DNA from: Solibacillus sp. R5-41
GTDB lineage: Bacteria > Bacillota > Bacilli > Bacillales_A > Planococcaceae
Assembly (NCBI RefSeq): GCF_002736105.1
Contig: NZ_CP024123.1
Location: 3,774,001-3,838,000, forward strand
DNA length: 64,000 nt
Direction: 5' to 3'
A model generated the notes under the pieces. The model did no database searches and was not told the DNA's origin. It saw nothing but the letters and a program-made list of their open reading frames with translations. The position numbers were made by a program, and so were the translations under genes. Shown here piece after piece: positions 46,150 to 50,941 of the stretch; positions within the stretch are counted from its first letter, which is position 1, and each line of letters begins with the position of its first letter.

Positions 46150-46630
46150 ATCACATTGGACTTAGAAACTGAAGGTACAGTAAGTTGGTTACAAGCGATG
46201 TTGAATAGTTTAGAATAAGCTTTTTCCTACAAATCCCCTTTTCAGCCATTTCACTTTATATTAGATTAGTTTTTACAGGTTGGAAATTTGGCGTATTTGC
46301 GTTAATTGGAAACGTATTTGCAATTTCAACTGCCTTTGCACTAGGTGGGGCACATGAATTGGTACATGCAAGACTTTACGGATTTAATGGGGTTTACTAT
46401 TCTTGCTGTATCTGTTGTCTTAAAAGATTCTAATACTCGTCTAGGCTATCTAACGGGGATTATCGGAGCGTGTTAAAGTATGCCACTCACTGCCACTGTC
46501 ACGACATGGCTTATACCATATGGGATTCCGAACTTCACCATGCCATTCGTCCTTTGTACATGATTGCTATTAGGTGCAGAAAAGAATTACCGCGGCTTCA
46601 ACACTCTGCACCGGGTACAAAAATAAACAT
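46150..46630 (+). pseudogene. Urea transporter (UT family) remnant
   Basis: Fragments in two frames recall the UT family: GWKFGVFALIGNVFAISTAF, then ARLYGFNGV (family hallmark LYGFN near the selectivity filter), then after a frameshift TILAVSVVLKDSNTRLGYL, a TAA, then TTWLIPYGIPNFTMPFVLCT and a TGA where Trp is expected. At least one frameshift and two stops, so it is dead. The N-terminal half is too decayed to read. No urease genes are in view. Confidence 0.7.
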
Positions 46631-46681: not shown

Positions 46682-48544
46682 TTAAATTTGCAGTGCAGTT
46701 TTGAGGTATAATTTTAAGGCATTTATCTGTCCTTCTGTATCAGCTTCTTTCTTTCCAGCAAGATTTGTCTCCAATAAAATACCATCTGTAACATTTATAA
46801 TAAAGGTGGCAATCGTATGAAGGGGCTGTTCTGGAGAAAATTCCCCTGTGTCTACTCCTTTTTGAAGCATTTTGATAAAGTTCTCCCTTGCACGATTAAA
46901 ACGTGTAAGTAAATACGGAATTCGCTCTATTCCTTCGCTACGCCATCCTGTAACGAAATATTCATAAGTAACTGCACTAATTTTATTAAATGAATCTTTA
47001 TTGTACTCATCTAAAATAGACTCTATAGTTTCCCAAACAGGTTGATTACTTTGAATAAGATTATGAATTTTCTTTTCAAATTGTTCATCCCTTTCATTCA
47101 GTATGCACTTTAACATCTCTTCTGTACTAGAAAAGTATTGATATACACCGCCCCGACTCATTCCAGATACTTCAACAACGTCTTTCATAGTTGTAGGTTC
47201 GAAACCCTTTTGACAGAACACAGTTTCAGCTGCCTTCAATATTTCAAACTTTCGATTTTCTTTGTACTGTTTAGTTACTTTAGGTGACATTTGGAACCTT
47301 CTTTCAATAGGAGATTTTATTATGATTGTTAATAAGCTGACTGCAATCAAAGATGTGCCGGATACAATAAATGTCATAACAACACCAAATAATTCGGAAA
47401 GAATTCCACCCGAAACCATCCCTATCAATGTCCCAAGTGTAGTCATACTGTTGATTATTCCGAAAACACGACCAGTTTTATCTACTGGGGTACTTTTTTG
47501 TACAATTATATTTAAAGGTATAATGGCAGATCCAAAAGAAAAGCCAGCTAGAAAAAAAAGTATGGGATATGCAATTGAAAGAAATGAAGGGGGAAGTTGA
47601 GACATAAGAGCAAGCGCTACAAGTGAAATTCCAAGTCCTAACGCTCCGAAAAACATGCAATCTAATGTCGAACGAATATGCTTTTTTGTAAAGATAGCTG
47701 ACGCTAAAAACATACCACCTCCACTAGCAGCCATACTATATCCCGCTACGGTTACAGGATCTTTAAAGATATCCCTCAACAGTACCATGAATTGAGTATC
47801 GGCGATTTGTAAAACGAGAAGCAAAAAAGTGGTAATAATTAAACTAATTAAAATGATAGGAATGCTTTTTAGGAAAGAGAAACCTCCTTTCATATCTGTT
47901 AGTAAATTTGAAATGAAATTCATTTTTTGCTGTTCGTTTTTTTCAACCTTAACCTTAACCTTTCGATTGTCCTTTGGAACGCCAAGTAAAAATAATGCTG
48001 ATAAAGCAAATGTAATAGCATCGATATAAAATGCCCATTGGATGCCTACAGTCGCAACAATCATTCCACTTAGTACTGGACCAATAATTTTTGCGCCATT
48101 ATCAATCATCCCACTAATGCCGATTGCTGCCTGCATTTGATCATCTTCTACGATTTCTTTTAATTTACCATTTTTTGCGGGAATAAATAATGCTACATAC
48201 GAACTTTTTAAAAATAACAAGACATATACATGCCATAGTTGGGTTGAAAATGCCACTCCTAAAACAAGAACCACACAGAACAAATCAGAAATCAACATAA
48301 TTAAACGCCGGTCAAACCGATCACTTAGCACACCGCTAAAAGGACCTAATAAAACCATAGGACCTACAAACACGAGCATTACACCAGAAACTGCTAGTGG
48401 TGAAGCATTCCACTTTACAGCAACTAAAGTGATTACAGCTAAAATATCCAACCAGTTTCCAATAGCCGAAACAGTTTGAGATGCAATCAAATACAAAAAA
48501 GCTTTATTTTTATATAGACGTTTTGAATCCGAACCACTAGTCAT
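46682..48544 (-). CDS. MFS efflux transporter fused to a TetR/AcrR-family regulator
   Basis: One uninterrupted 620-residue frame. Residues 1 to about 410 are a 12-span MFS exporter (SQTVSAIGNWLDILAVITLV; LLGPFSGVLSDRFDRRLIML). From about 419 (MSPKVTKQYKENRKFEIL) a full TetR protein follows, with helix-turn-helix TTMKDVVEVSGMSRGGVYQY and a ligand-binding domain. The junction is RRFQ-M; that ATG (47288-47290) has its own AGAAGG six bases upstream, so free TetR (46682-47290) could also be made. ATG 48544 follows GGGGGAATAAGG. Twin operators overlap its promoter. Fusion versus two linked products cannot be settled from sequence. Confidence 0.88.
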   Translation of the reverse strand: MTSGSDSKRLYKNKAFLYLIASQTVSAIGNWLDILAVITLVAVKWNASPLAVSGVMLVFVGPMVLLGPFSGVLSDRFDRRLIMLISDLFCVVLVLGVAFSTQLWHVYVLLFLKSSYVALFIPAKNGKLKEIVEDDQMQAAIGISGMIDNGAKIIGPVLSGMIVATVGIQWAFYIDAITFALSALFLLGVPKDNRKVKVKVEKNEQQKMNFISNLLTDMKGGFSFLKSIPIILISLIITTFLLLVLQIADTQFMVLLRDIFKDPVTVAGYSMAASGGGMFLASAIFTKKHIRSTLDCMFFGALGLGISLVALALMSQLPPSFLSIAYPILFFLAGFSFGSAIIPLNIIVQKSTPVDKTGRVFGIINSMTTLGTLIGMVSGGILSELFGVVMTFIVSGTSLIAVSLLTIIIKSPIERRFQMSPKVTKQYKENRKFEILKAAETVFCQKGFEPTTMKDVVEVSGMSRGGVYQYFSSTEEMLKCILNERDEQFEKKIHNLIQSNQPVWETIESILDEYNKDSFNKISAVTYEYFVTGWRSEGIERIPYLLTRFNRARENFIKMLQKGVDTGEFSPEQPLHTIATFIINVTDGILLETNLAGKKEADTEGQINALKLYLKTALQI

Positions 48545-48580
48545 CCTTATTCCCCCATTAATGAAATAAAATCAAAAAAA

Positions 48581-48626
48581 TGACAACTCTGTCATTATTA
48601 TAAAGTGACAGGGTTGTCAGTTTCAA
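48581..48626 (-). promoter_or_regulatory. Promoter with twin TetR-type operators
   Basis: TTGAAA (48621-48626) and TATAAT (48597-48602) on the minus strand, spacer 18. Two palindromes TGACA-N4-TGTCA-type, TGACAGGGTTGTCA (48606-48619, between the -35 and -10) and TGACAACTCTGTCA (48581-48594, at the transcription start), are also mirror images of one another apart from one base. A bound TetR would block RNA polymerase. Binding by the fused regulator is inferred. Confidence 0.8.
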
Positions 48627-48778: not shown

Positions 48779-49672
48779 TTAATCTCCTCCCCCACCGCAG
48801 CTTGAACAGGAACTACCGGACGAGCAAGAATTACAGGAGCTTCCCGACCCGCAACTTGAACAACTTGATGAACCGTTGTTGCTTAATTTCATATAACTTG
48901 AAAATTCATCATAATGAAAAAAAGAAACAGATAAAAAAGGTACGAGCATCGCATTGTAATTTTGCTGTTTTTTTCTTTTTCTCATCATTTCATGTATGAG
49001 CTTTTTCTCATAGTTTTTAACTCTGTTTGCTGATTTTTTCATGGAAGAAATCAGTGCGAGGAGAGGAGGCATATATTTGGTATTGCGCTTAAAATAAATA
49101 TCTATTAGTTCGTCTACTGATAAATTTCTAAATTCATCTATCACATTTGGATTTACTGGGTATTTGAAAAACCCCTTATAAAGATGGATATTTTCATTTC
49201 TTATGAAAAATAGCTCTGCATATACCCAATCAAAAAATCCGCGCAAATCAGGATCAGGCTCAACATTAACATTTGGACTGTGGTGAAGTAATGTCCCTAA
49301 ATATTTCTTTGAAAAATCTTCATACTCACGGGTAAACATGAGCATCTGATGCCACAGTTCATCAACTTTCTTACTAAACATAGGTGACTCTTTTAAAAGA
49401 AAAGTCAAAATAAAATAACGTTTTAAATCCAGGAGACGCCACTCGTACTCATTTTCTTTTAACCTATTCCTATTTCTTTCCCTTACCCTATCTTCTACGG
49501 TTCCCATATAATTTTTTTTAAGGGCTTGCTCCAGATTTTCACTTAACTTTTTTAATCCTTTAATTGGTTTTATATCTAATGTATTTGGAGATAAACCAAA
49601 TTTAAATGAAAGCTTTTTACGTATAAATAAAATAAACGAAATAAAAACTACAAGCAATAGTAACCATCCCAT
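48779..49672 (-). CDS. Membrane-anchored protein with a Ser/Gly-Cys tail (glycine-rich-domain-like)
   Basis: A 297-residue protein: an N-terminal span (MGWLLLLVVFISFILFIRKK), a charged linker, a domain with KKVDELWHQMLMFTREYEDF and a following LGTLLHHSP typical of glycine-rich domain proteins, and a low-complexity tail after about 265 of Ser/Gly with six Cys arranged as three CxxC pairs (CSSC, CNSC, CSSC) ending GGGGD. The tail could bind metal or form disulfides. ATG 49672 follows GGAGGGC. Function unknown. Confidence 0.75.
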   Translation of the reverse strand: MGWLLLLVVFISFILFIRKKLSFKFGLSPNTLDIKPIKGLKKLSENLEQALKKNYMGTVEDRVRERNRNRLKENEYEWRLLDLKRYFILTFLLKESPMFSKKVDELWHQMLMFTREYEDFSKKYLGTLLHHSPNVNVEPDPDLRGFFDWVYAELFFIRNENIHLYKGFFKYPVNPNVIDEFRNLSVDELIDIYFKRNTKYMPPLLALISSMKKSANRVKNYEKKLIHEMMRKRKKQQNYNAMLVPFLSVSFFHYDEFSSYMKLSNNGSSSCSSCGSGSSCNSCSSGSSCSSCGGGGD

Positions 49673-49807
49673 CAAATGCCCTCCTTCCTTTTAGAATTTT
49701 ATTGTAGTCAGGTTTCATATTTTACTATTTTAAATATCCCTAAACTAAACAGACACACTTGTTCAATAACTTCACCAAAAATACGTTTAATCCTTTTTTG
49801 AACAACA

Positions 49808-49844
49808 GAAAGAACGAATTTCGCCATCAGAAATTCGTTCTTTT
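49808..49844. terminator. Hairpin in the spacer before the dus gene end
   Basis: GAAAGAACGAATTTC pairs perfectly with GAAATTCGTTCTTTT around a seven-base loop, T-rich on the plus side. The rest of the 49676-49972 spacer shows nothing I can name. Confidence 0.65.
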
Positions 49845-49972
49845 CATATTGGATTTTCCCCAACTCCACGACAGCCTCTAATTATGGTGGATGTTGATCA
49901 AGGGGAATCATTAAATAAAGTAGTGTTACAACTTTTATGCAAATAAAATCTCAAATAACAATCGTCGTTTTT

Positions 49973-50941
49973 TCAATCGACAATGTTTGCTTCAAAAGCA
50001 TCCAGCAACGCTCTTACTTCATCGGTTGTTTTTGTGTTCATCAATTGATTTCTTAATTCACCTGCCCCGCGGAATCCTTTGACATAAATTTTGAAAAATC
50101 GATGCAGCCCTGTGACTGAACGTGGTAATTCCTCTGCATATTTATCTTGAAGATCTAGCTGCAATCTTAAGAGATCCAGGTATTCATCACTACTATGCTC
50201 TTTTGGTTCCTTTTCAAAGGCAAACGGATTTTTAAAAATACCGCGCCCAATCATCACACCATCAATACCGTATTTTTCTGCAAGCTCAAGACCCGTTTGA
50301 CGGTCAGGAATATCTCCGTTGATTGTTAGTAGCGTATTTGGTGCGATACGGTCACGTAATTCTTTGATTTCCGGAATCAGCTCCCAATGCGCATCAACTT
50401 GGCTCATTTCTTTTCTAGTACGCAAATGAATAGAAAGATTCGCAATATCTTGTTTCAATATATGCGTTAGCCATTCCTCCCACTCCTCTAAATCCGAGTA
50501 ACCAAGTCTTGTTTTCACACTTACAGGCAGCCCTCCAGCTTTTGCTGCTTGTATAATTTCAGCGGCAACGTTTGGACGTAAAATAAGACCGCTCCCTTTT
50601 CCTCTCGTAGCGACATTTGGTACAGGGCACCCCATATTAATATCTACGCCTTTAAACCCAAGTTCTGCCATACCTATACTCATTTGACGGAAATTTTCGG
50701 GCTTATCTCCCCATATATGCGCAACAATTGGCTGTTCATCTTCTGTAAAAATCAAACGTCCTCGCACACTTTTCATGCCCTCTGGATGACAATAACTTTC
50801 CGTGTTTGTAAACTCTGTAAAAAACACATCTGGGCTTCCTGCTTTACTTACGACATGACGAAAAACAACATCAGTCACATCTTCCATCGGAGCAAGTACA
50901 AAGAACGGTTTCGGTAAATCGTTCCAAAAATTTTCTTTCAT
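49973..50941 (-). CDS. tRNA-dihydrouridine synthase
   Basis: A 322-residue FMN-dependent enzyme reducing uridine to dihydrouridine in tRNA. The barrel starts [20 protein letters not shown], with the catalytic Cys in [20 protein letters not shown] and the phosphate-binding [17 protein letters not shown]. It resembles the DusC-like branch found beside DusB in many Bacillales. Monocistronic. Confidence 0.93.

Follow-up and report, generated by a model that had tools for sequence, protein, structure and literature searches.

The window, that is the whole stretch of DNA analysed here, comprises 64,000 nucleotides from Solibacillus sp. R5-41 (NCBI RefSeq assembly GCF_002736105.1, contig NZ_CP024123.1, positions 3,774,001 to 3,838,000). 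On its minus strand, an MFS exporter gene and a TetR regulator gene are joined in one open reading frame, preceded by a promoter and two palindromes. The features, in the order of transcription, are the following:

48597..48626, minus strand: promoter with -35 box TTGAAA (48626-48621), 18-nt spacer and -10 box TATAAT (48602-48597), 11 of 12 consensus bases
48606..48619, minus strand: putative operator 1, TGACAACCCTGTCA, a conserved palindrome inside the -35/-10 spacer
48581..48594, minus strand: putative operator 2, TGACAGAGTTGTCA, a conserved palindrome just after the -10 box, 25 bp from operator 1
48552..48556, minus strand: GGGGG, ribosome-binding site of the MFS start, read from the sequence
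46682..48544, minus strand: single open reading frame of 620 amino acids, YfiS-like MFS exporter fused to YfiR-like TetR regulator, fused in 4 of 16 genomes of the genus
47291..48544, minus strand: MFS (YfiS-like) part, residues 1-418, with the Pfam MFS_1 match and under purifying selection
47297..47302, minus strand: AGAAGG, the ribosome-binding site that tetR had as a separate gene, kept in the fusion, pairing -9.9 kcal/mol
47288..47290, minus strand: junction ATG (M419), aligned with the regulator start (ATG, GTG or TTG) of split relatives
47280..47282, minus strand: TAA in what was once the MFS frame, its end 11 nt past the beginning of the regulator start, found in 4/4 fused and 0/54 split loci
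46682..47290, minus strand: TetR (YfiR-like) part, residues 419-620 and stop, with the Pfam matches TetR_N (435-479) and TetR_C_17 (520-601)

The initial annotation had described an uninterrupted frame leading from an MFS protein into a TetR regulator. Its continuity, both domains and its 620 codons, with one terminal stop, are as described, but its strand is not: the frame reads from 48544 to 46682 on the minus strand, and the plus strand of the same interval contains many stops. All three Pfam matches (MFS_1, TetR_N and TetR_C_17) lie above their cut-offs, and MFS_3 matches as well. The MFS_1 match (E 1.1e-45, residues 21-375) covers positions 3-346 of a 347-position profile and thus corresponds to a full-length MFS domain. 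TIGR00900 is matched over its whole profile (1-364 of 364, residues 16-387), with 176.3 bits, under the curated cut-off of 319.6, which fits a complete transporter. No separate exporter protein of about 417 residues is encoded, the frame running on to the end of the TetR part in all four loci of the genus that carry it. For the MFS start, the pairing of the 18 preceding nucleotides amounts to -8.4 kcal/mol. In the TetR part, TetR_N scores 47.7 bits (cut-off 24) and TetR_C_17 82.7 bits (cut-off 26.1), and the closest solved structure is that of Bacillus subtilis YfiR (1rkt, E 1.5e-53, over residues 1-201 of this part). A search of 299 genomes of the class for TetR_C_17 yielded 35 matches, spread over 34 genomes: the window's own lies in a frame of 629 amino acids and the remaining 34 lie in frames of 197-246.

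The relatives of this gene show from which arrangement it derives. Among 80 distinct MFS loci with at least 34% identity, 59, the window included, have a YfiR-type regulator directly after the MFS gene on the same strand. The other 21 loci, which had no TetR match at E 1e-4 in the flank fetched (about 1.5 kb for most), and the paralogues of the window genome below 34% identity were omitted from the count; L012, which comes from the same genome as L011, was counted once. The 59 loci consist of 4 fused and 55 split ones. In each of the 55 split loci, which are non-independent (many come from one genus) but spread over several families, yfiR begins in the +1 frame before yfiS has ended, with an overlap of 20-56 nt; one more split and overlapping pair, outside the 55, occurs in genome G353. 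Compared with a randomisation of synonymous codons, the overlaps are longer in 0/55 loci at P<0.05 (mean 43.1 versus 35.9 nt). The early proline codon of the regulator is never CCT in the split loci of the series L013-L088 (0/54); CCT before AAA or AAG would end the exporter frame early.

The pair can be identified as YfiS-YfiR, because a published yfiS primer is found in three split loci, one of which encodes a regulator that matches 1rkt over its full length (E 1.3e-126). The B. subtilis pair (YfiS, an MFS protein, TCDB 2.A.1.31.3; YfiR, a TetR protein, PDB 1rkt) belongs to the same two sequence families as the Solibacillus fusion; gene order, operator type and the region of the regulator start are also alike. 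The subtilis-type loci L049, L050 and L052 share about 41% (MFS) and 49-50% (TetR) identity with the fusion in tblastn. However, they consist of two genes in different frames, with a 35-nt overlap and a regulator starting with TTG, whereas Solibacillus has one frame and an ATG.

The search for the same fusion in related genomes, which the initial annotation had proposed, bore it out: 4 of the 16 genomes of the genus are fused and 55 of the 55 counted relatives elsewhere are split. In the family, matches at E 1e-60 occur in 4 of 261 genomes, all in the genus of the window and all fused; an order-wide search covered these same 261 genomes. No further fused frame was found in a sample of 398 genomes of the class (39 with a match at E 1e-50), in a sample of 398 genomes of the phylum (8 matches at E 1e-60, all in the class) or in the families around good matches (17, 80, 193, 34 and 18 genomes); these searches covered sampled species under E-value limits, and rare fusions elsewhere are possible. 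The longest other frames, of 559 and 525 amino acids, both come from MFS genes. The former (genome G402) was rejected as a fusion, the fetched stretch containing a separate MFS gene of 426 amino acids with no TetR gene beside it, and the latter (L074) proves to be a split pair. A read-through frame of 582 amino acids in the window genome was likewise discarded, as it corresponds to a separate TetR gene of 194 amino acids between two metabolic genes. This genome lacks a second close copy of either half, its other 18 matches showing 21-33% identity. As for a plasmid or viral origin, no match was obtained among 72,556 plasmid records at E 1e-20, nor among viral contigs.

A chance frame is excluded, because this single frame recurs in three further genomes of the genus, with 82-90% identity and low dN/dS. 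The gene fusion is therefore real and conserved; the YfiS-YfiR pair was known before, and the fused form is a new variant of it. Pfam-type architecture lists include a few MFS+TetR proteins. At the level of titles and abstracts, no report of a natural MFS-TetR fusion was found in the literature, which is weak evidence of novelty, and the accessible part of a paper on frame transitions and translational coupling names no such case (PMC3711429).

The promoter region carries an element shared with the split relatives. An exact GACAnnnnTGTC operator (GACAN4TGTC) is present in 59/59 loci within a 180-nt stretch around the exporter start, and base-shuffled upstream stretches contain 0.0014 such sites each. 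Two copies occur in 4/4 fused loci; among the 55 split loci, 39 have two copies and 16 have one. The operator is thus common to split relatives and retained in the fused form, as autoregulation predicts, binding itself being predicted from this conservation. The two palindromes would be the operators by which the regulator probably controls its own promoter. The whole promoter region is not enriched in promoter-like sites (5 versus 7.8 in shuffles).

The old start of the regulator has also been kept. The initial annotation had placed AGAAGG six bases upstream of the junction ATG (47290-47288, M419) and had proposed that a free regulator may be made from the same mRNA; the two motifs are exactly where it put them, and the free product appears likely. 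The internal site of the window pairs with the anti-Shine-Dalgarno tail at -9.9 kcal/mol, and those of the three remaining fused loci at -10.1 to -11.0. The value for the window is close to that of a typical mechanical ORF start there (median -10.05 for 46 starts), and 2.7% of 339 internal in-frame ATGs have a pairing as strong; the nearest split relatives pair more strongly (-12.4 to -13.0). All four fused loci therefore still possess the old ribosome site and ATG, with a start of ordinary strength, so that a free TetR of about 202 residues is probably made alongside the 620-residue fusion.

How the two genes merged can be partly read from the junctions. The overlapping split pair is taken as the ancestral state, and, given the +1 overlap, a net deletion of one base joins yfiS and yfiR in one frame. 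The four fused loci are monophyletic in the MFS, TetR and joint trees and form two pairs, L001/L009 and L010/L011 (support 0.935 and 1.0 in the joint tree). In L001/L009, the distance between AGG and ATG is 6 nt, while it is 7 nt in L010/L011 and in the nearest split loci; in L010/L011, one base is missing further upstream instead. The linker DNA of L001 and L010 is identical at 12/24 positions when ungapped and at 21/24 once a single gap is placed in each sequence; this would account for the unrelated appearance of the linker peptides SPIERRFQ and SLSKEGIE. The position of the deletions is read from this identity count (12 versus 21 of 24): of three MAFFT settings applied to 16 sequences, two place the gaps of the two pairs apart and the third, with a high gap cost, places one shared gap in all four, whereas MAFFT on the four fused loci alone places no gap.

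As the deletions seem to lie at different places in the two sub-lineages, the in-frame state was probably reached twice, or else reached once, broken and regained. Events counted by hand amount to three for two mergers and four for one merger followed by a compensating pair. The fused loci share, however, the CCT codon that creates the old-frame TAA, in 4/4 fused and 0/54 split loci (CCT represents 86 of 270 proline codons in all 59 TetR parts). This hints at an old exporter tail with which their common ancestor could already dispense. Indel positions and event counting thus favour two mergers, and the shared CCT codon speaks against them. The fused clade with its stem represents about 4.5% of the tree length (crown 0.325 and stem 0.396 of 16.12); two mergers in such a small part of the tree and none elsewhere would be suggestive of something specific to this clade.

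Both halves look functional, since pairwise dN/dS among the four fused loci is low in the MFS part (0.094-0.143) as well as in the TetR part (0.067-0.154), as expected under purifying selection. The linker behaves differently. For its nine codons, which offer very few sites, dN/dS exceeds 1.6 in the five pairs, out of six, for which the ratio could be formed, four of these five pairs spanning the two different frames. The linker is short and lacks sequence conservation, even within the pair L001/L009, whose frame is the same. The absence of stops in the linker was dropped as a test for selection on the fusion, only 0.16-0.66 stops being expected under neutral drift. Because the linker is not conserved and so few neutral stops are expected, selection for the tether itself is unproven. 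The fused state has persisted over a dS of 0.37-0.66 in L001/L009 and of 0.12-0.22 in L010/L011.

Taken together, we somewhat favour the reading of the locus as an autoregulated efflux operon in which the pump carries TetR as a cytoplasmic tail and free TetR is made as well. Ancestrally, the regulator gene would have begun 20-56 nt before the end of the exporter gene, in the +1 frame, and have been translated from a ribosome site inside the exporter tail. Deletions with a net loss of one base, located between the last membrane span and the regulator ATG, would then have brought both genes into one frame. A single mRNA, whose promoter two GACAnnnnTGTC operators overlap, would give the 620-residue exporter with its cytoplasmic TetR tail and, from the retained ribosome site and ATG, the free TetR of about 202 residues. 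TetR proteins are dimers; the fusion and the free TetR would both dimerise and repress the promoter, until repression is lifted by binding of a ligand, probably a substrate of the pump. Within this scheme, the fused frame and its conservation, the split relatives, the operator palindromes and the strength of the start site were observed, whereas we infer the making of both products, the DNA binding, the ligand and the cytoplasmic orientation.

A less probable, although serious, explanation is that the fusion is an incidental and tolerated by-product of the overlap, with an inert TetR tail and a free TetR that regulates as before. In every one of the 55 split loci counted, the overlap sets the two genes off by one base, which agrees with this explanation, as do the retention of the internal start and the unconstrained linker. 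It accounts poorly, however, for the distribution of the fusion, found in none of the 55 split lineages, each a single mutation away, and in both sub-lineages here, and for the dS over which the fused state has lasted.

It is unlikely that, conversely, the working unit is the tethered form, acting as a one-component sensor coupled to the transporter. The pump would then, at the membrane, pass ligand to the TetR tail it carries, or signal its transport state to it, and so set repression, the free TetR being minor. With no separate MFS frame, and the former frame stopping in 4/4 loci, every full pump must carry the tail; purifying selection on both halves and an in-frame state probably reached twice, or broken and regained, within so small a part of the tree also point in this direction. 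Yet an internal start of ordinary strength is retained in all four loci, the operators do not differ in kind from those of split relatives, the linker diverges even between two loci that share a frame and its lack of stops is uninformative. A more specific proposal is likewise unlikely: the short linker of a natural transporter-tethered TetR would relay the transport cycle or substrate occupancy to the repressor domain, coupling export and derepression in one molecule, and selection for this coupling would have driven two mergers in Solibacillus. We estimate that about 18 residues separate the last span from the first TetR helix. A direct link between transport and derepression within the fusion is possible.

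Finally, indels of a single base are frequent among assembly errors and the difference here amounts to one base, but an assembly error or a decaying gene can be ruled out with near certainty by four concordant genomes, forming two pairs with different junctions, by low dN/dS in both halves and by the clean split state of the closest relatives.

With respect to known systems, the predicted circuit recalls the TetR/TetA and QacR/QacA operons, in which a TetR-type repressor controls an exporter promoter through palindromic operators. TetR and QacR are, however, free cytoplasmic proteins encoded by separate, often divergent genes, unlike the Solibacillus fusion, and textbooks present TetR-family repressors in general as free cytoplasmic proteins. 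A DNA-binding domain tethered to the membrane is found in the ToxR/CadC membrane-integrated one-component regulators, and CadC is described as receiving a signal from a transporter, LysP (PMC5936718). ToxR-type regulators nevertheless have an N-terminal winged helix, one transmembrane helix and an outer sensor, and the transporter of CadC is separate; in contrast, the Solibacillus fusion, a probable repressor, bears its TetR at the C-terminus of a complete multispan transporter. The ToxR/CadC architecture is absent here, Pfam showing only MFS then TetR domains.

The function of YfiS itself in B. subtilis is uncertain. According to the literature, TCDB places it in 2.A.1.31 and its function is given as unknown (PMC5417439); it is the closest relative in B. 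subtilis 168 of the lipopeptide exporter KrsE, its overexpression raising the surfactin titre in this strain (PMC11124408), and is a possible surfactin exporter (PMC12096827). The gene also flanks yfiT, and YfiS has been suggested to export mercapturic acids that derive from bacillithiol conjugates (PMC4360819).

A maintained repressor-exporter fusion would make the reporting of substrate flux from pump to promoter testable. Even with an inert tail, the conserved +1 overlap leaves two genes one base from fusion, and the 55 split and 4 fused loci provide a before-and-after series for how gene fusions begin.

The surroundings of the fusion differ within the genus. Genome G160 retains the gene neighbourhood of the window, whereas none of 15 neighbouring ORFs of the window was matched within 18 kb around the gene in G151 and G150; relocation or transfer of the gene within the genus is a possible explanation. 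The neighbourhood in two other fused genomes (L100 and L101) is unlike that of the window and G160, L100 having Amj upstream and another MFS gene downstream. In the window, an ORF with a Cys/Gly tail (48779-49675, no Pfam match) and a gene named by eye as dihydrouridine-synthase-like lie at 48779-50941, between the fusion and a nitroreductase-like gene; neither has a match in the syntenic stretch of G160. Directly downstream of the fusion, at about 46260-46560 on the plus strand, lies what by eye resembles a urea transporter gene reduced to a remnant, interrupted by stops and shifts of frame; this gene is intact in the syntenic G160 (L099:7056-7988, Pfam UT, 4.5e-73).
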